Assembly (NCBI GenBank): GCA_903920435.1
Contig: CAIXMB010000162.1
Coordinates: 1 to 39,359, forward strand
DNA length: 39,359 bases
Origin: an uncultured Actinomycetes bacterium
GTDB taxonomy: Bacteria > Actinomycetota > Actinomycetes > Actinomycetales > Microbacteriaceae
Direction of reading: 5' to 3'
Shown: positions 18,640-25,823 of the stretch, in pieces
How the letters are laid out: every line of letters begins with the position of its first letter
Position numbering within the stretch: position 1 is the first letter of the stretch
The notes under the pieces: generated by a model
What the model was told of the DNA's origin: nothing
The model's input: only the letters and a program-made list of their open reading frames with translations
The model's database searches: none
Translations under genes and position numbers: made by a program

Positions 18640-18676
18640 AAGTCGTAGGATGCGAGAAACGACGCGAAAGGGTCTC

Positions 18677-19291
18677 ATGTTCTCCACTCGCTCAACGACA
18701 GTCGCCGCATCCGGAATTCTGCTGCTCGCCCTCGCGGCGTGCACGGGTGGCGGAGGCGGCGGGGGTGGTGGCGGCGAGGAGCCCGCGGACGGGGCATCCG
18801 GTGGCGGTGCGACGGCGTGCGTCGCGGGCAAGACCTGGGTGCTCGATGTCGCCGACGCCGCGAGCCAGCTCGGCGCCCAGCTCGCGTCGAGCGGCATGAA
18901 CGTCATCCAATCCGAGGGTTCGGGCCGCCAGTCGTTCACCTTCGACGAAGGCGGCTCGGCCTCCGCCAGCATCGACCTCACCTACACGGTCACGATCCAG
19001 CAGGACGACCTCACCCTCACCCTCGTGCAGACCCACGGCGGCGACCCGACCGGCGAGTGGGCCTGGCAGGGCGGTTCCGACAGCACCATCGTCTTCTCCA
19101 ACTGGGACAACGCCGGATACTCGGTGCAGAACCAGTTCATCGTCAACGGCACCTCGAGTGAGAACACCATGGACATCCCCTCCGACACCCTCGGCGACGG
19201 GAGCGTCATGACCGTCGACTGCTCGGGCGACACGCTCACCACCCAGGTGACCGGCAGCCCGTACACCCAGCACTGGAACGCCGAGGGCTAG
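18677..19291 (+). CDS. Lipoprotein of unknown function, tandem paralogue 1
   Basis: The 204-residue protein has a lipobox LAAC (Cys at 22), then a run of ten glycines and an acidic linker. A secreted domain follows, beginning TACVAGKTWVLDV and ending VDCSGDTLTTQVTG, with two Cys residues framing it. I chose the ATG at 18677 because AAAGGG lies 4 nt upstream; an in-frame ATG at 18650 is less likely. A short GC-rich hairpin (19301-19313) follows the stop. It is paralogous to the next gene. Confidence 0.78.
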   Translation: MFSTRSTTVAASGILLLALAACTGGGGGGGGGGEEPADGASGGGATACVAGKTWVLDVADAASQLGAQLASSGMNVIQSEGSGRQSFTFDEGGSASASIDLTYTVTIQQDDLTLTLVQTHGGDPTGEWAWQGGSDSTIVFSNWDNAGYSVQNQFIVNGTSSENTMDIPSDTLGDGSVMTVDCSGDTLTTQVTGSPYTQHWNAEG

Positions 19292-19380: not shown

Positions 19381-19977
19381 TTGTTCACAGCACGGCGTTC
19401 ACCAGCAGCGCGATTGATGGCAGGCGTTGCCGTGACCCTCCTCGCCGGTGTGGGCCTCGCGGGCTGCTCCCTCGTCGAGGTGGCACCGCCCGCGCCGCTC
19501 TCCGGCATCGCCGCGTGCACGCTCGGCAACACGTGGAACCTCGACACCGGCAATCTCGCCGAGGTGCTGACCGCCGAGCTCGCCTCGCGCGGCATCACGG
19601 CCGTCGTCGGCGTCGACGGCAACCAGACACTCGACTGGGATCTCGACAGCAAGATCGTGCTCACCACCGACTACACCGTCACGACCACGTCGGGAGCCGA
19701 GGGCGCGCAGACCGTCATCACGAGCAAGCACTCGGGAACGTCGAAGGGCATCGCGTACATCAACGCCGAGGTCGCCATCCCGCGCGACTGGGACGGCACG
19801 GGCCTCTCGGTCACCACCAAGGCCACGGTCAGTGGCGTCGACACCGACCCGGTGCCCTACGACAACGTGGCGACGGACATCGACGACTCGGTCGGCGTGG
19901 AGCTCACCTGCGACGGCAACACGCTCACCACGCACCAGCGCGGCAGCGACGTCATCCTCACCTGGACTAAGAAGTAG
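19381..19977 (+). CDS. Lipoprotein of unknown function, tandem paralogue 2
   Basis: The 198-residue protein starts at a TTG with GGGGAGG about 5 nt upstream. The lipobox LAGC has its Cys at 29. The domain parallels the previous gene: AACTLGNTWNLDT...LTAELASRGI matches TACVAGKTWVLDV...LGAQLASSGM, and LTCDGNTLTTHQRG matches VDCSGDTLTTQVTG. Both Cys residues are kept, so a disulphide is likely. The poly-Gly linker is missing here. Its end overlaps the convergent sulfurtransferase by 11 bp. Confidence 0.77.
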   Translation: MFTARRSPAARLMAGVAVTLLAGVGLAGCSLVEVAPPAPLSGIAACTLGNTWNLDTGNLAEVLTAELASRGITAVVGVDGNQTLDWDLDSKIVLTTDYTVTTTSGAEGAQTVITSKHSGTSKGIAYINAEVAIPRDWDGTGLSVTTKATVSGVDTDPVPYDNVATDIDDSVGVELTCDGNTLTTHQRGSDVILTWTKK

Positions 19978-20788
19978 GGTCGCCGACCTCGAGCGGCAAC
20001 GACGGGTCGGCTGACCACTCCTCGAGCGAGCCGTCGTAGATGCGCACGGCCTTCTTGCCGATCGCGGCGAGCGTGAGGGCGTTGGCCGCGGCGGAGATGC
20101 CGCCGCCGCAGTAGAGCAGCACTTCCTCGTCGCTACCCTCGGCAACCTCGATGCCGGCCGCGTCGTAGGCGAGGATCAGCTCGACGCGCGTTTTCACGTG
20201 GCCGTCGGAGGTGAACAGGTCACGGCTCGACACGTTCACGCTGCCCGGGATGCGCCCGCGGCGGGAGTACCTCGTGGGGTCGGCCCCGGTGAAGGAACCG
20301 GCGGGAAGTCCGCAGACCAGCGGCCGCGGGTCATCCGGGTCGCGTTCGAGCAGTTCGCTCTTGCTCACCCACGCCTTGCGCACGGCGCTCGCCTGCCAGG
20401 TTGGCACGGGCTCGGGCGCCTCGGACTCCCCCGCCTCAACGCGCTCCCCCGCGGCCTGCCAGGCCGCGAACCCGCCGTCGAGCACGCGCACGGGAACTCC
20501 GATCCAACGCAGGAGGTACCACAAGCGCGCCGCGAACAGGTTGCCCGTCGCGTCGTACACGACCACCGGTCGACCCTCACGGATGCCCAGCCGGGCGAGC
20601 TCGTCGGCGATCGCCTGCGGTTCCGTGTGGGTGTAGTGAAGTGGAGCGCCGGGATCGCTGAACTGGGTCGGGATGTCGACGTGGATCGACCCCGGGATGT
20701 GCCCCTCGAGCCACTTCGGCTGCCCCGACTCGGTGCGGTAGTCGCCGTCTGCCTTCGCGGGGTGGAGCACGAAACTCGCGTCGAGCAC
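19967..20788 (-). CDS. Thiosulfate/3-mercaptopyruvate sulfurtransferase (two rhodanese domains), N-terminus disrupted
   Basis: Read from the only in-frame start (GTG), this is a 273-residue protein with two rhodanese domains. The inactive-type first domain holds HIPGSIHVDIP and VVVYDATGNLFAARLWYLLRWIG. The second holds GRIPGSVNVSSRDLF and the active-site loop YCGGGISAAANA with its catalytic Cys. The usual first strand (ISVGELADAL) lies upstream in the same frame but without any start codon. It is restored to an ATG at 20855 only if one base of a G5 run is removed. The enzyme moves sulfur to a thiophilic acceptor; its place after thiamine-transport genes may be meaningful. Confidence 0.88.
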   Translation of the reverse strand: MLDASFVLHPAKADGDYRTESGQPKWLEGHIPGSIHVDIPTQFSDPGAPLHYTHTEPQAIADELARLGIREGRPVVVYDATGNLFAARLWYLLRWIGVPVRVLDGGFAAWQAAGERVEAGESEAPEPVPTWQASAVRKAWVSKSELLERDPDDPRPLVCGLPAGSFTGADPTRYSRRGRIPGSVNVSSRDLFTSDGHVKTRVELILAYDAAGIEVAEGSDEEVLLYCGGGISAAANALTLAAIGKKAVRIYDGSLEEWSADPSLPLEVGDPTS

Positions 20789-20855
20789 GGCGGGCGGGTT
20801 GGGCGACGAGAGGGCGTCGGCGAGCTCGCCTACGGAGATGAACGGGGGAGGTCAT
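20789..20855 (-). other. Apparent one-base insertion separating the sulfurtransferase from its true start
   Basis: The ATG at 20853-20855 overlaps the stop of the upstream kinase gene (ATGA), as at other junctions here, but reads out of frame. Removing one G from the run 20844-20848 gives MTSPFISVGELADALSSP continuing into LDASFV, the expected rhodanese beginning. In the given frame a TGA at 20852-20854 precedes the homologous residues. This is either a sequencing or assembly error, or a recent mutation. Confidence 0.75.
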
Positions 20856-21331
20856 GGTTCCCACTCTAGGGAGAACGCCTCGACGTCGCGCCCGTCGACC
20901 ATGACGTCGGCGAGGGCGCGCGGATTCTCCCGCGCGAGGAACCGCTCCTCCTGCGCCGCCCACTCGTCCCAGTGCTCGGCGTAGTACTCGTCGCGCGCGA
21001 GTGCCCGCTGCTTGCGCGTCGTGTCATCGAGCTCGACCCAGAGTGCGTGGTCGGCGAGCGGCCGTGACGCCGAGCTGATCGCCCCGACCCCCTCGATGAT
21101 CACGTCGCCCGGCAGCACCTCGTGCCACTCGGCGGGTGCGCCGAGCGCCCAGTCCCAGCGCTGCCACCGGCCCTCGGCGAGGATGCGCGGCACCGCCGCG
21201 CTCCCGGCGTCGAGCCCACCCCACCCGGGGTAGATATCGTCGAGCCGAACGAGCTGGGCGCCGAGCCGGCGCGCGAGGAGCGCAGCGAGCTCGGTCTTCC
21301 CCGACCCCGAGCGCCCGTCGATGAGTGTCAC
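20852..21331 (-). CDS. P-loop kinase, uridine-kinase-like, in the thiamine operon
   Basis: The 159-residue cytosolic protein has Walker A GRSGSGKT at residues 6-13 and the LVRLDDIYPGWGGLD segment (Asp of the substrate pocket). It also has DVIIEGVGAIS, the Walker-B-like strand of the uridine kinase/phosphoribulokinase fold, and a basic lid. It is shorter than true uridine kinases. The GTG overlaps the ATPase gene stop (GTGA) and the stop overlaps the sulfurtransferase ATG, so it belongs to the TPP-riboswitch operon. A vitamin or precursor kinase is possible, but annotation as a generic nucleoside kinase is the safe call. Confidence 0.82.
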   Translation of the reverse strand: MTLIDGRSGSGKTELAALLARRLGAQLVRLDDIYPGWGGLDAGSAAVPRILAEGRWQRWDWALGAPAEWHEVLPGDVIIEGVGAISSASRPLADHALWVELDDTTRKQRALARDEYYAEHWDEWAAQEERFLARENPRALADVMVDGRDVEAFSLEWEP

Positions 21332-22053
21332 CTGCCGAGGAATCTGGCCACCTCCTCCGTGGCGGGCGACTCGAGAACCTCGCTGGCCGGGCCCTCCTGG
21401 ACGAGATGGGTGTCCATCATCACGCCGATGCGGTCGGCGACGAGCACGGCCTCACCCTGGTCGTGCGTCACGAAGATCGCCGTCGTGCCGGTCTCGACGA
21501 GGATGCGCCGCAGGTCGCGCCCGAGCCGCTCGCGCAACTCGCGATCGAGCGAACTGAGCGGCTCGTCGAGCAGGAGGAGCCGCGGGCGCGCGGCGAGGGA
21601 GCGCGCGAGTGCGACCCGCTGCTGCTCACCGCCTGAGAGTTCGGTGACGCGCCGGTCGCCGAATCCGTCGAGCCCGACGAGGTGCAGCAGTTCGGCGACG
21701 CGCACGCGCTGCTCGGGCACGGGCATCCGGGCGATCTGCAGGGCGTAGGCGACGTTGGCGGCGACCGTGCGGTGGGCGAAGAGCTGGCCGTCCTGGAACA
21801 TGAGGGCGAAGCCGCGCTTGTGCACGGGCAGGGCCGTGATGTCGTCGCCCTGCCAGAGCACGCGGCCCGAGTCGAGCACCTCGAGGCCGGCGATCGCCCG
21901 CAGCAGCGTTGACTTGCCGCTGCCCGACGGCCCGAGGATCGCGAGCACCTGCCCCTCATCCAGAGTGACGGAGACGTCGTCGATGGCCAGCGCGGTGTGC
22001 CGGCCGTCACGCAGGTACGAGACCGTCAGGTGCTGTGCTTGGAGGATCGCCAT
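21328..22053 (-). CDS. thiQ: Thiamine ABC transporter, ATP-binding protein
   Basis: The 241-residue ATPase has Walker A GPSGSGKS at 41-48, Q-loop MFQDGQLFAHRTV, signature LSGGEQQRVAL, Walker B LLLLDEPLSSLD and H-loop VTHDQGEA. It is closest in style to the iron/thiamine/sulfate group. Its ATG overlaps the permease stop by one base. Substrate assignment rests on the ThiB-like binding protein and the TPP riboswitch at the head of the operon. Confidence 0.9.
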   Translation of the reverse strand: MAILQAQHLTVSYLRDGRHTALAIDDVSVTLDEGQVLAILGPSGSGKSTLLRAIAGLEVLDSGRVLWQGDDITALPVHKRGFALMFQDGQLFAHRTVAANVAYALQIARMPVPEQRVRVAELLHLVGLDGFGDRRVTELSGGEQQRVALARSLAARPRLLLLDEPLSSLDRELRERLGRDLRRILVETGTTAIFVTHDQGEAVLVADRIGVMMDTHLVQEGPASEVLESPATEEVARFLGR

Positions 22054-23666
22054 CAGAATGCTCCCACCGTATCGACCCGCAGGCGCTCGACGAGGGCGAT
22101 GACCGCCACCGTGACCCCAGCGAGCACGACCGAGGCCGCGAGGGCCATGCCGAAGTTGTCGCCGCCGGGCAGCCCGATCAGCCGGAAGATCACCACCGGC
22201 AGCGTCGGCCGGTCGGGGCGCGCGAGAAAGCTCGTCGCGCCGAACTCCCCCAGCGCGACCGCGAACGCGAAGCCGGATGCCGCGAGCACCGGCCGCGCGA
22301 CCACGGCGAGGTCGACGTCCCGCAGCACGCGCCACGGTGCCGCGCCGAGCACCGCTGCCGACTCGCGCAACCGCGGGTCGATGGACCGCAGTACGGGCAG
22401 CACCGTGCGCACCACGAGCGGCAGCGCGACGAGCGCCTGGGCGATGGGAACGAGCACCGGCGACGACCTCAGGTCGAACGGCGGCTGGTTGAGGGTGATG
22501 AGGAACCCGAAGCCGACGGTGACCGCCGACACCCCGAGCGGCAGCAGCAGGGCGCCGTCGAACGCGGCAAGTGCGCGCCGGGCGATCGGGCGACGCGGTG
22601 ATCTGCTGAGCACGAGGGCCGCCGCGAGCCCGACGACCACGGCGATGAGCGTGGCCTGCACGGCGGTGGTGAGCGAGTTGCCGAGCGCCACCCACACCGG
22701 CACGACGAGCGCGTTGCGCGAGCCGGTGCCCGCGAGGAGGGCGTAGTTGGTGAATCCGTAGCCGGTCGTCGTGCGCAGCGAACGTTCGACGAGGGCGATG
22801 ACGGGCACGGCGAGAGCCGCGGTCACGACGATCGCGGCGACGATGGCCGGGGCATCCGTGCGCCTGGCGCGGCGCGCGATCGCGGCGCGGCGCTGGGTGC
22901 CGCCGCGCACCCGGCCCACCACGGCGAGCAGGGCTACGACGATCACGAGCTGCGTCACACTCAGGACGCTCGCGGCGCGCAGGTCGAGGAACTGCGTGGT
23001 GAGCAGGTAGATCTCGGTCTCGATGGTGCCGAACTTCGTTCCGCCGAGCACGAGCACGACGCCGAAGGCGGTCGCGCAGAATAGGAACACGATCGACGCG
23101 GCTGCCGCGATCGAGGGCCCGAGACGGGGCAGGGTGATCGTGAGGAAGACGCGCGCCGGGCTCGCGCCGAGCACGCGAGCGGCGTCCTCCTGCCGCGGAT
23201 CGAGCCCCTCCCAGGCGCTGCCGACCGTGCGCACGACCACGGCGATGTTGAAGAACACGAGAGCGAGCAGGATGGCGGCGAAGGTGCCGTCGAGGGGCGT
23301 GCCGCGCAGCAGGGTGCGGAAGGCCACGCCCACGACCACGGTCGGCAGCACGAACGGGAGGATGACGAGCGCCCGCACGAGGGCACGGCCGCGGAACGCC
23401 AGGCGGTAGAGCACGTGCGCCACGGGCAGGCCGAGCACGACGCAGATCACCGACGCGAGCGCGGCCTGGGCGAGGGTGAGCCCGATGAGGCGTACGGTGC
23501 GCGGCCGCGCGAAGACCTCAGCGAAACCGCCGAGGCCGTCGGCGAACCCGCGACCGATCATGGCCGCCACGGGCCAGGCGAAGAACACGCCCAGGAACGC
23601 GAGGGGCAGGCCGACGCCGAGCACCGTCGCGATGACGGTGCTCGGCGCCGTGCGGATTCGTGTCAC
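22053..23666 (-). CDS. thiP: Thiamine ABC transporter, fused permease
   Basis: The 537-residue protein is a head-to-tail fusion of two permease domains with about 12 helices, the ThiP/FbpB plan. EAA-type loops are visible in each half: PRQEDAARVLGASPARVFLTITLP in the first and DPRLRESAAVLGAAPWRVLRDVDL in the second. The GTG start at 23666 overlaps the thiB stop (GTGA). Upstream in-frame codons would only read back into thiB. Confidence 0.9.
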   Translation of the reverse strand: MTRIRTAPSTVIATVLGVGLPLAFLGVFFAWPVAAMIGRGFADGLGGFAEVFARPRTVRLIGLTLAQAALASVICVVLGLPVAHVLYRLAFRGRALVRALVILPFVLPTVVVGVAFRTLLRGTPLDGTFAAILLALVFFNIAVVVRTVGSAWEGLDPRQEDAARVLGASPARVFLTITLPRLGPSIAAAASIVFLFCATAFGVVLVLGGTKFGTIETEIYLLTTQFLDLRAASVLSVTQLVIVVALLAVVGRVRGGTQRRAAIARRARRTDAPAIVAAIVVTAALAVPVIALVERSLRTTTGYGFTNYALLAGTGSRNALVVPVWVALGNSLTTAVQATLIAVVVGLAAALVLSRSPRRPIARRALAAFDGALLLPLGVSAVTVGFGFLITLNQPPFDLRSSPVLVPIAQALVALPLVVRTVLPVLRSIDPRLRESAAVLGAAPWRVLRDVDLAVVARPVLAASGFAFAVALGEFGATSFLARPDRPTLPVVIFRLIGLPGGDNFGMALAASVVLAGVTVAVIALVERLRVDTVGAF

Positions 23667-24697
23667 GGGGTCGCGATCGCCGCCCACTCGGCGAGCCAGG
23701 CCTCACGGTTCTCGTCGATGTCGGCGGGGCTCACGACGAAGGGGTCTGGGGCGATCTTCGCGAACTTCACGAACGAGTCGGGCAGAGTCGCCTTCGCATT
23801 CACCGGGTACACGTACATCGTCTCGGGGATGTCGTTCTGCACGGTCGTCGAGAACAGGAAGTCGACGAGCTTCTGCGCGCCGGCCGGATTCTTCGTGCCG
23901 GCGATGACCCCCGCGTACTCGGTCTGCCGGAAGCACGTGTCGAGAAGTGCACCGGTGGGCGCCTCGGTGGCGCCCTCGGGAACCTCGAACGGCGGCGAGG
24001 AGGCGTAGCTCACGACTATCGGGCGGTCCCCCTCGCTCGACGGGCCGGAGAAGTCGACATAGTAAGCATCGCTCCAGCCCGCGTCGACCTTCGTGCCGTT
24101 CGCCATGAGCTTGGTCCAGTAGTCCTGCCAGCCGCCGTCGCCGTACTTGGCGATGGTCGCGAGGAGGAAGGCGAGGCCGGGCGAGCTGGAATTGGCCGCC
24201 TCCGTCACGAAGAGATCCTTGTACTCGGGCTTGATGAGGTCATCGAGCGTCACCGGCTCGGCGATGCCGTGCTCGGCGAACCACTCGTGGTCGACGTTGA
24301 CGCACACGTCGCCGTTGTCGATGGGGGTGAGCTGCTCGCGGCCCTGCCCCTCGGGCAGCAGGTACTGGTCCTCCGCGCTCGTGAGGTCCTTCGACGCGTA
24401 GTCCGCCAGCACGCCGTTGTCGACGGCGCGCGACGCGAACGTGTTGTCGATGCCGAACACGACGTCGCCCAGCGGCGAGTCCTTCGTGAGCACGAGGGTG
24501 TTGACGAGCTGCCCGGCGTCTCCGGCCGACTGCACCTGGACCGGGATGCCCGTCTGCGCAGTGAACTGGTCGAGGATTCCGTCGCTCAGGGCGAACGAGT
24601 CGTGCGTGACGAGCACGAGCGGCTGGGCATCCGTGCTGGGTGCGCTGCACCCGGTGAGTACGAGAGCGACCGCCGCCGCGAGAATTGCGTATTTCAT
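23663..24697 (-). CDS. thiB: Thiamine ABC transporter, substrate-binding lipoprotein
   Basis: The 344-residue protein has a lipoprotein signal (lipobox LTGC, Cys at 17). It is followed by a class II periplasmic-type fold: LVLVTHDSFALSDG, GDVVFGIDNTFASRA, then NSSSPGLAFLLATIAKYG and RPIVVSYASSPP, blocks typical of ThiB. AAGGAAGG lies 7 nt before the ATG. It captures thiamine or a close derivative outside the cell. Translation is probably controlled by the riboswitch whose 3' end is 57 nt upstream. Confidence 0.93.
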   Translation of the reverse strand: MKYAILAAAVALVLTGCSAPSTDAQPLVLVTHDSFALSDGILDQFTAQTGIPVQVQSAGDAGQLVNTLVLTKDSPLGDVVFGIDNTFASRAVDNGVLADYASKDLTSAEDQYLLPEGQGREQLTPIDNGDVCVNVDHEWFAEHGIAEPVTLDDLIKPEYKDLFVTEAANSSSPGLAFLLATIAKYGDGGWQDYWTKLMANGTKVDAGWSDAYYVDFSGPSSEGDRPIVVSYASSPPFEVPEGATEAPTGALLDTCFRQTEYAGVIAGTKNPAGAQKLVDFLFSTTVQNDIPETMYVYPVNAKATLPDSFVKFAKIAPDPFVVSPADIDENREAWLAEWAAIATP

Positions 24698-24753
24698 TGA
24701 CGTGCCTTCCTTGTGCGGAATGTCTCCGCTGGTGGGGCACGGGTTTCGAGAAT

Positions 24754-24845
24754 GCCTCCCTGCGCTGGCATGATCCAGATCAGGTTCGACGGTCGAAGCT
24801 TGGAGAAGCTTCCTCTCAGCCCGGCTCACCGGACTCCCGTGTTCG
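24754..24845 (-). promoter_or_regulatory. TPP riboswitch (THI element)
   Basis: On the minus strand the conserved blocks appear in order. ACACGGGAGTCC and its pairing partner form P1/P2. GGGCTGAGAGGAAG (CTGAGA at 24814-24819) is the pyrimidine-binding loop. ACCTGATCTGGATCATGCC and CGCAGGGA (about 24757-24785) form P4/P5 and close P1. The 92-nt length is normal. No T-run terminator follows, so masking of the thiB ribosome binding site is the likely mechanism (inference). Confidence 0.95.
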
Positions 24846-24850
24846 TCTCC

Positions 24851-24881
24851 ATGCTACTGCGCCGACTTATGTCTGTGTCAG
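24851..24881 (-). promoter_or_regulatory. Predicted promoter of the thiamine operon
   Basis: On the minus strand CTGACA (24876-24881, five of six to TTGACA) and TAGCAT (24851-24856) are separated by 19 bp. Initiation about 7 nt later would begin exactly at the riboswitch 5' end. Confidence 0.5.
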
Positions 24882-24889
24882 ACTAAAGT
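24865..24889. promoter_or_regulatory. Imperfect dyad in the divergent thi/LLM spacer
   Basis: ACTTATGTCTG and CAGACTAAAGT around TGT are complementary at nine of eleven positions. The dyad covers the predicted -35 of the thiamine operon and ends just before the ATG at 24891, so one bound regulator could affect both directions. Confidence 0.4.
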
Positions 24890-24890
24890 C

Positions 24891-25823
24891 ATGGACATCC
24901 GCATCGGGACTCAGCCGCAAATGGGCGCCACCTACGACGACATCCTCGGCGCCGCCCAGGCTGCCGAACGGCTCGGTTTCGACGGCTTCTTCGTGTCGGA
25001 CCACGTGATGGGCTGGCGCGACCCCATGGAATCCCTCCCGGGACCGACGGACGCCTGGACCACCCTCGCCGGACTCGCACGGGAGACCTCGACGATCCGG
25101 CTCGGCACGCTCGTGACCTCGGCCAACTTCCGCTACCCCGGCCTGCTCGCCGTGCAGGTCGCCCAGGTCGACCAGATGTCGGGCGGTCGCATCGACTTCG
25201 GGCTCGGCGCCGGGTGGTCGGAGGCGGAGCACCGCGCGTACGGGCTGCCGTTCCCGGTGCGCCGGTTCGACGTGCTCGAGGAGCAGCTCGACGTGATCAC
25301 CGGCATCTGGAGCACGCCGCTCGGCGAGCGCTTCAGCTACGACGGCGAGTTCTACCAGCTCACCGAGTGCCCCGCGGTGCCCAAGCCCACGCAGAGCAAC
25401 CCGCCGATCATCATCGGCGGCAAGGGGCCGACCCGCACGCCGGCGGTCGCCGCCCGCTACGCCGATGAGTTCAACGGCAGCTACGCCACCCTCGAGGAGA
25501 CGCCACGGATGTTCGCTGCCGCCCGCGCTGCGTGCGAGGCCATCGACCGCGACCCCTCGACGCTCGTGTACTCCGTGATGTCGTCACTCGGCGTCGGCGC
25601 CACGGCCGCGGATCGGCAGCGCCGCGCCGGCTACAGCGGCAAGTCGGTCGACGACCTGGTCGAGACCGGCGTCGGCGGCACCCCGCAGCAGGCCATCGAC
25701 CGGCTCGCGGCACTCGCCGAGGCGGGAGTCCAGCGCATCTACCTGCAGTTCCCCGGGTTCACCGACATCGATCACCTCGAGCTCATCGCGGCGGAGGTGC
25801 TTCCGGCGGCGCGCGCCCTCTAG
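24891..25823 (+). CDS. LLM-class F420-dependent oxidoreductase
   Basis: The 310-residue luciferase-like TIM barrel opens with DIRIGTQPQMGATYDDILGAA and contains AERLGFDGFFVSDHVMGW, STIRLGTLVTSANFRYPGLLA and GLGAGWSEAEHRAYGLPFP. The last is the block shared by F420-type members. NPPIIIGGKGPTRTPAVAARYADEFN binds the cofactor phosphate side. The exact reaction is unknown. There is no ribosome binding site, and the hexamer TAAAGT ends only 1 nt before the ATG, so the promoter lies elsewhere, possibly in the dyad region. Confidence 0.9.
   Translation: MDIRIGTQPQMGATYDDILGAAQAAERLGFDGFFVSDHVMGWRDPMESLPGPTDAWTTLAGLARETSTIRLGTLVTSANFRYPGLLAVQVAQVDQMSGGRIDFGLGAGWSEAEHRAYGLPFPVRRFDVLEEQLDVITGIWSTPLGERFSYDGEFYQLTECPAVPKPTQSNPPIIIGGKGPTRTPAVAARYADEFNGSYATLEETPRMFAAARAACEAIDRDPSTLVYSVMSSLGVGATAADRQRRAGYSGKSVDDLVETGVGGTPQQAIDRLAALAEAGVQRIYLQFPGFTDIDHLELIAAEVLPAARAL

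Follow-up and report, generated by a model that had tools for sequence, protein, structure and literature searches.

A PRK06547 kinase behind riboswitch-linked vitamin B1 importers of actinobacteria: a candidate thiamine kinase

What does a small kinase do behind the genes of a thiamine importer? The question is raised by a stretch of 39,359 nucleotides (the window; contig CAIXMB010000162.1 of assembly GCA_903920435.1) from an uncultured member of the Microbacteriaceae. From position 24841, its minus strand carries a thiamine pyrophosphate (TPP) riboswitch, or THI element, followed by thiB, thiP, thiQ, a gene for a 159-residue P-loop kinase of the family PRK06547, and a rhodanese reading frame (Table 1). 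Genomic context, the source of both the substrate and the reaction proposed here, makes it quite probable that the kinase is a thiamine kinase with a uridine-kinase-like fold, which converts thiamine to thiamine monophosphate (TMP) and so feeds ThiL. The observations are the operon itself, the assignment of the riboswitch, the recurrence of the kinase beside unrelated importers of the thiamine type, and a set of gaps in the thiamine pathway. In the mechanism that we propose, the riboswitch would sense TPP and control one transcript encoding the importer ThiBPQ and the translationally coupled kinase. When TPP is low, thiamine would be imported; the kinase would then use ATP to convert it to TMP, which would be trapped in the cell; and ThiL, encoded elsewhere in the genome, would convert TMP to TPP.

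The riboswitch passes the gathering score of the Rfam model RF00059 narrowly (54.7 versus 54.3 bits), and it is the sole match at an E-value of 0.001 or better in the whole draft genome of the organism (G000; 3.16 Mb in 204 contigs, 96.4% complete). The initial annotation had described five genes overlapping end to start behind one THI element. This description holds from thiB to the kinase, where overlaps of 1 to 4 nucleotides are read in the sequence at all three junctions, and breaks down at the junction of the kinase and the rhodanese, where the ATG is out of frame. The starts of thiB and thiP were placed from the overlaps; a mechanical list of open reading frames gives longer frames for both. 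All three importer proteins miss the equivalog cut-offs for ThiB, ThiP, and ThiQ (96.6 versus 317, 114.8 versus 395, and 147.2 versus 298 bits, respectively), models that may be based on proteobacterial members. A scan of positions 19700 to 25000 with the σ70 consensus gave no promoter-like site (0.2 expected), which is weak evidence for actinobacteria. The riboswitch would also control the last genes of the operon.

The genome of the window encodes a ThiL over its cut-off, and searches of it for thiamine pyrophosphokinase (TPK), ThiC, ThiE, and ThiK gave no match for any of them. Thus, imported thiamine is left in this organism without an assigned first phosphorylation. The initial annotation had called for a check of just this gap, and with TPK and ThiK unmatched, no other enzyme for the step from thiamine to TMP was found in G000. 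This result and the four types of importer that precede the kinase under TPP riboswitches (see below) are the reasons for reading it as a thiamine kinase.

Within the Microbacteriaceae, 82 loci were compared: the window, 80 loci hand-picked among the best-scoring matches listed (mostly one per genus, with weak-scoring genomes under-represented), and locus L145, added for its riboswitch. The riboswitch model used, R1, was built from 20 such elements, which match it by construction. With R1, 71 of the 82 loci show a riboswitch upstream of the kinase and in the same orientation. The importer genes before the kinase are ykoEDC in 62 loci, each with a riboswitch upstream, and thiBPQ in 7, 6 of which have the riboswitch while the seventh (L084) lies on a contig that ends. 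A further locus has thiB-thiP with a riboswitch, and 5 have incomplete yko sets, 4 of these at contig ends. In L145 (genome G005), a riboswitch and a ThiXYZ-type importer with an NMT1/THI5-like binding protein precede the kinase. Locus L032 contains an S component (PF09819) and a T component (PF02361). No such importer stands before the kinase in L037, L040, L044, L094, L095, and L105.

A quick tree of the kinases (37 of its 79 inner branches have support below 80) requires that the yko and thiBPQ states switch at least 6 times. The window kinase falls in a group of five together with those of three congeneric genomes, which carry ykoEDC, and that of L058; support for this group, at 86, is not strong. 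The flank behind the kinase (a zincin and an oligoribonuclease) is common to most loci of both arrangements. From the repeated changes of state and the shared flank, we read the arrangements as an exchange of importers in front of a resident kinase.

Other actinobacteria add a further importer. In 32 loci from other actinomycete families, a riboswitch is close to the kinase in 3, not including a fourth, partial match (12.9 bits, E 0.054). The gene between riboswitch and kinase in these 3 loci encodes a transporter of the PnuC/PnuT type (PF04973). Rfam's RF00059 scores below its gathering score at all 3, and the calls rest on R1 (49 to 53 bits, E 2e-14 or better) and on a report on the acI bacteria (PMC5301498). 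Small genomes from two further families have the order riboswitch-pnuT-kinase in 22 of 23 loci (22 loci from family f32 and one f43 genome, among the matches listed); the pnuT-linked kinases of G410 and G462 contain one internal stop each. The exception is L178 (G310), which has neither pnuT nor a riboswitch beside the kinase. G310 has a ThiE and also the strongest match of the ThiK search, 72.5 bits, which is under the cut-off. A Candidatus Nanopelagicales draft (L260) shows the riboswitch-pnuT-kinase order too.

Among 79 database loci, some of which are genomes already counted (L203 is G082; L211 is G133), an importer lies directly upstream of the kinase in 24: yko in 18, including 4 loci of Mycolicibacterium/Mycobacterium and 4 of Corynebacterium; thiB-thiP in 2 (Leucobacter); and pnuT in 4. 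The riboswitch occurs in 20 of these 79 loci, each of them among the importer-linked 24, and the match in L220 is weak (18.9 bits). The initial annotation had asked whether the kinase stays with thiBPQ across the Microbacteriaceae, and took a gene lying mostly outside thiamine operons as evidence against its reading. Only 6 of the 82 Microbacteriaceae loci lie outside; in most of the other actinomycete families sampled, the gene does lie mostly outside (29 of 32 loci without a riboswitch; 55 of 79 database loci without such an importer).

Because the kinase sits behind four kinds of importer under a TPP riboswitch in different actinobacteria, it stands out as a strong candidate for the still unassigned enzyme that phosphorylates vitamin B1 after import and so traps it. 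The wider form of this idea also appears likely. In it, the P-loop proteins of PRK06547 and their close relatives would be a kind of thiamine kinase that acts as the metabolic trap for vitamin B1 after uptake across much of the actinobacteria, from the Microbacteriaceae, Mycolicibacterium, and Corynebacterium to the freshwater Nanopelagicales, and importers of four unrelated kinds would have replaced one another before it under TPP riboswitches.

The kinase itself scores above the threshold of NF005115 (PRK06547, "hypothetical protein"), a family without an assigned function and its sole NCBIfam match at E 0.001; ThiK (TIGR02721) and TPK (TIGR01378) are absent from its matches. At E 0.001 or better, NF005115 matches in 192 of 199 Microbacteriaceae genomes, 131 of them over the cut-off, and in 258 of 296 genomes of a sample of the class, only 22 of them over it. 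The family search also gave a match in C. glutamicum, which served as a control genome. Across 133 kinase sequences (82 from the Microbacteriaceae, 23 from the pnuT families, and 28 others), residues G6, G11, K12, W37, W61, E80, and G81 are kept without exception, R113 varies once, and position 10 is S in 65 and A in 62. The structure model and the profile compared with the Protein Data Bank (PDB) were built on an alignment of 62 sequences (the window kinase and 61 selected by motif), in which the invariance of S10 and D31 is an effect of the selection. The AlphaFold model of the window kinase has a mean pLDDT of 96.8. Its nearest solved folds are human uridine-cytidine kinase 2 (UCK2) and the uridine kinase of T. 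thermophilus (TMq 0.60 to 0.76, identity 16 to 23%); UCK2 matches with an E-value of 3.1e-8 and a TMq of 0.75, which places the protein in the uridine/cytidine kinase fold. Among solved structures, the 62-member profile finds uridine kinase, phosphoribulokinase, and nicotinamide riboside kinase, along with a Bacillus protein of unassigned function. By sequence, its best match there is PDB 1rz3, an unassigned protein of Bacillus stearothermophilus that was deposited as a possible uridine kinase. The label "uridine-kinase-like" thus fits the fold but is no firm guide to the substrate.

Pathway genes were surveyed in 80 Microbacteriaceae genomes; the ThiK search covered 73 of these and 7 others. 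ThiL is over its cut-off in 74 of the 80, just under it in G133 and G186, and matched only weakly in G005, G015, G027, and G088. TPK (TIGR01378) is over its cut-off in one genome, G015, which has neither ThiL nor the kinase. ThiK (TIGR02721) is over its cut-off in none of the 80 genomes searched for it, with weak matches in 20 and none in G000. ThiC is present in only 3. ThiE matches at E 0.001 in 31, made up of 23 over the cut-off, 2 more that are clearly present, and 6 weak partial matches that were counted as absent (G016, G041, G058, G072, G073, and G088), which leaves G000 and 54 other genomes with no convincing ThiE. Of these 55, 51 have the kinase; the other four are G015, G027, G088, and G138. 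G027 (L143) and G088 (L144) are small genomes that have thiBPQ with a TPP riboswitch and no ThiL, kinase, or TPK over the cut-off, and they would be candidates for direct import of TPP. G070 also lacks the kinase, the only other genome of the set to do so, and encodes ThiC, ThiE, and ThiL. A search of the retrieved loci of G138, G027, G088, G015, and G070 gave no convincing remnant of the kinase. A chain leading from thiamine through the kinase to TMP and through ThiL to TPP fits these ThiE-lacking or kinase-less genomes, with the exception of G138 and G005.

In the class sample, ThiL is over its cut-off in 282 of the 296 genomes and TIGR01378 in none. The 115 weak partial matches to TIGR01378, which span about 40 residues in longer proteins and presumably represent SteA-like proteins, were not counted as pyrophosphokinases. 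The figures for ThiL and TIGR01378 are compatible with a thiamine kinase yet to be assigned in these genomes. Among the 96 ThiE-negative genomes of the sample, 31 have neither the kinase (at E 1e-17) nor a pyrophosphokinase over the cut-off, and a further thiamine route is likely in these 31.

Several findings weigh against a thiamine kinase of this kind. G138 (L142) has a riboswitch, ykoEDC, and ThiL, and there is no kinase behind its ykoC, while G005 has the kinase and no recognisable ThiL. The pnuT-linked kinases score 88 to 125 bits on NF005115, under the cut-off of 173, and by their sequences they are relatives rather than proven members of PRK06547. Outside the Microbacteriaceae and the pnuT families, the gene is mostly alone in the loci sampled, in some cases beside his genes (as read from the neighbouring sequences); such stand-alone members either have the same role without an operon, or some of them do something else. 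It had been predicted beforehand that ThiE-negative genomes of the class carry the kinase, and this prediction failed. In the 296 genomes, with the kinase counted at E 1e-17 or better and the weak ThiE match of G405 taken as negative, 65 ThiE-negative genomes have the kinase and 31 do not, compared with 125 and 75 of the ThiE-positive genomes (Fisher p 0.44). The argument from pathway gaps is therefore limited to the Microbacteriaceae and the pnuT families. Lastly, an upstream riboswitch need not mean a response: riboswitch-linked transport operons of B. thetaiotaomicron are described in a passage of one study as showing no significant change with thiamine (PMC5613172).

Known systems provide points of comparison for the proposed role. 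ThiK (YcfN, TIGR02721) catalyses the same reaction as that proposed here, thiamine and ATP to TMP, and feeds ThiL. It differs in its fold, which is that of the aminoglycoside phosphotransferases, whereas the window protein is a P-loop kinase. Thiamine pyrophosphokinase (ThiN/TPK) resembles the window kinase in the slot that it occupies behind a thiamine importer and a TPP riboswitch; however, the window protein is unmatched to TIGR01378. PnuT works by facilitated diffusion, so that phosphorylation is needed to retain thiamine. The tnr3 gene of the Bacteroides operon pnuT-tnr3 encodes what we take to be a thiamine pyrophosphokinase. This operon lies under a TPP riboswitch, and its tnr3 product is called a thiamine pyrophosphorylase in the relevant passage of the literature (PMC5613172). 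The group of uridine-cytidine kinases, phosphoribulokinases, and nicotinamide riboside kinases shares the fold and the Walker A motif with the window kinase. The latter differs from the uridine kinases in its shorter length (by about 50 residues relative to the matched chains), its low identity to them, and its own kept positions W37, W61, and E80.

These comparisons bear on what else the kinase might do. That it fills the slot of tnr3 in pnuT-tnr3, and that G005 has the kinase and lacks ThiL, would suit a pyrophosphokinase that makes TPP in one step, with ThiL kept for TMP from other sources. We regard this as improbable. ThiL is over its cut-off in 74 of the 80 genomes, among them ThiE-lacking ones such as G000, where no internal supply of TMP other than the kinase would exist, and the fold is nearest to kinases that transfer one phosphate, the uridine kinase group. 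It is a little less probable still that the protein is a uridine or cytidine kinase carried in the operon by chance, although both the closest solved folds and the profile match point toward nucleoside kinases and the gene stands alone in most sampled loci outside the thiamine-linked lineages. Its distance in identity and length from the uridine kinases and its single NCBIfam match to NF005115 argue against a nucleoside substrate, and carriage by chance leaves several unrelated importers under TPP riboswitches unexplained. The initial annotation had allowed for a kinase acting either on imported thiamine or on a precursor, and here the importer context and the pathway gap favour thiamine. Phosphorylation of a precursor brought in by the importer, hydroxymethylpyrimidine (HMP) or the thiazole alcohol, is unlikely, slightly more so than a nucleoside kinase. 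A passage of PMC6593275 names HMP as a further substrate taken up by YkoEDC and ThiXYZ, but lists ThiBPQ and PnuT as importers of thiamine only. Moreover, HMP or thiazole phosphates would be unusable because ThiE is lacking: with no convincing ThiE in G000 and 54 of the other 79 genomes, precursors could not be joined into TMP, and an HMP or thiazole kinase was rejected.

The last gene of the window operon had been proposed to supply sulfur for thiazole formation, which would make the operon a unit of salvage plus synthesis. This is very unlikely, the least probable of the alternatives. In its favour, the rhodanese lies directly behind the window kinase, and in 6 of the 7 relatives compared that have the gene (L057, L058, L068, L088, L093, and L099), its start codon overlaps the kinase stop and leads into an in-frame TSPFI or TPSPFI; L060 is the seventh, and its rhodanese does not begin at the kinase stop. 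Against it, only 8 of 81 Microbacteriaceae loci, counting the window, have a rhodanese after the kinase, with either importer, and the frame at its start is offset in the window. There the kinase stop overlaps an ATG (ATGA) that is in a different frame from the rhodanese. Positions 20788 to 20855 contain 1 extra base after the start codon relative to the relatives, and the frame from the relatives' start is not intact. A start at GTG 20788 would remove the first strand of the rhodanese domain, and the extra base could be a sequencing error in this 204-contig draft or a real frameshift. A supply of thiazole would also be useless in G000, because neither ThiC nor ThiE is matched there. The rhodanese was consequently rejected as a thiamine gene, and on account of its presence in 8 of 81 loci and the missing ThiC and ThiE matches, it is not counted in the thiamine function.

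Table 1. Features of the window operon and of its kinase.
Feature	Positions	Strand	Evidence and remarks
TPP riboswitch (THI element)	24740..24841	-	Rfam RF00059, 54.7 bits, E 3.5e-8
thiB, thiamine-type solute-binding protein	23663..24697	-	TIGR01254 (sfuA subfamily), 229 bits versus cut-off 93.4; start ATG 24697, placed by eye
thiP, two-domain (two-BPD) permease	22053..23666	-	PF00528, 2 stretches; GTGA overlap with thiB
thiQ, ABC ATPase	21328..22053	-	PF00005, 126.8 bits; 1-nucleotide overlap with thiP (TGATG)
P-loop kinase PRK06547	20852..21331	-	NF005115, 174.9 bits versus cut-off 173; GTGA overlap with thiQ
Walker A motif of the kinase, IDGRSGSGKT	21293..21322	-	G6, G11, and K12 in 133 of 133 kinases
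DDxYPGW motif of the kinase	21221..21241	-	W37 in 133 of 133, G36 in 132, Y34 in 129; position 31 D in 123, E in 10
Two-domain rhodanese frame	19967..20851	-	PF00581, 102.7 bits, 2 stretches; first in-frame start GTG 20788; intactness doubtful

The genes that flank the operon lie on the plus strand. Divergent from the riboswitch, positions 24891 to 25823 encode an F420-dependent LLM oxidoreductase (TIGR03560, 261 bits), whose cluster is present in 26 of the 81 loci. Convergent to the operon, positions 18650 to 19291 and 19381 to 19977 encode two lipoprotein-like paralogues that belong to one cluster of 8; they have no Pfam match at E 0.001, and members of the cluster lie behind the kinase in some relatives.

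No paper in the literature searched, which excluded subscription journals and preprints, names PRK06547, and among the titles and abstract openings listed none assigns the family a function; a prior assignment (for example in a subsystem database) is possible. Within the same limits, no literature was found on a "thiamine kinase" in actinomycetes, nor on a missing thiamine kinase in connection with Corynebacterium and ThiL. Thiamine kinase activity is known; the protein family for the activity would be new. In the acI bacteria, passages of the report by Kang and colleagues describe a THI element before a presumed PnuT in four genomes and nearly all enzymes of de novo thiamine synthesis and salvage as missing (PMC5301498). 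These passages describe the pair of riboswitch and pnuT, not a kinase gene behind pnuT. If the kinase does phosphorylate thiamine, this account of the near-absence of thiamine salvage enzymes from the acI bacteria would need to be qualified, and a family called hypothetical in the databases would gain a function. Most of the 80 Microbacteriaceae genomes are unable to make thiamine, as the rarity of ThiC indicates, and the first enzyme that acts after uptake is unassigned in them; the candidate described here would close that gap.

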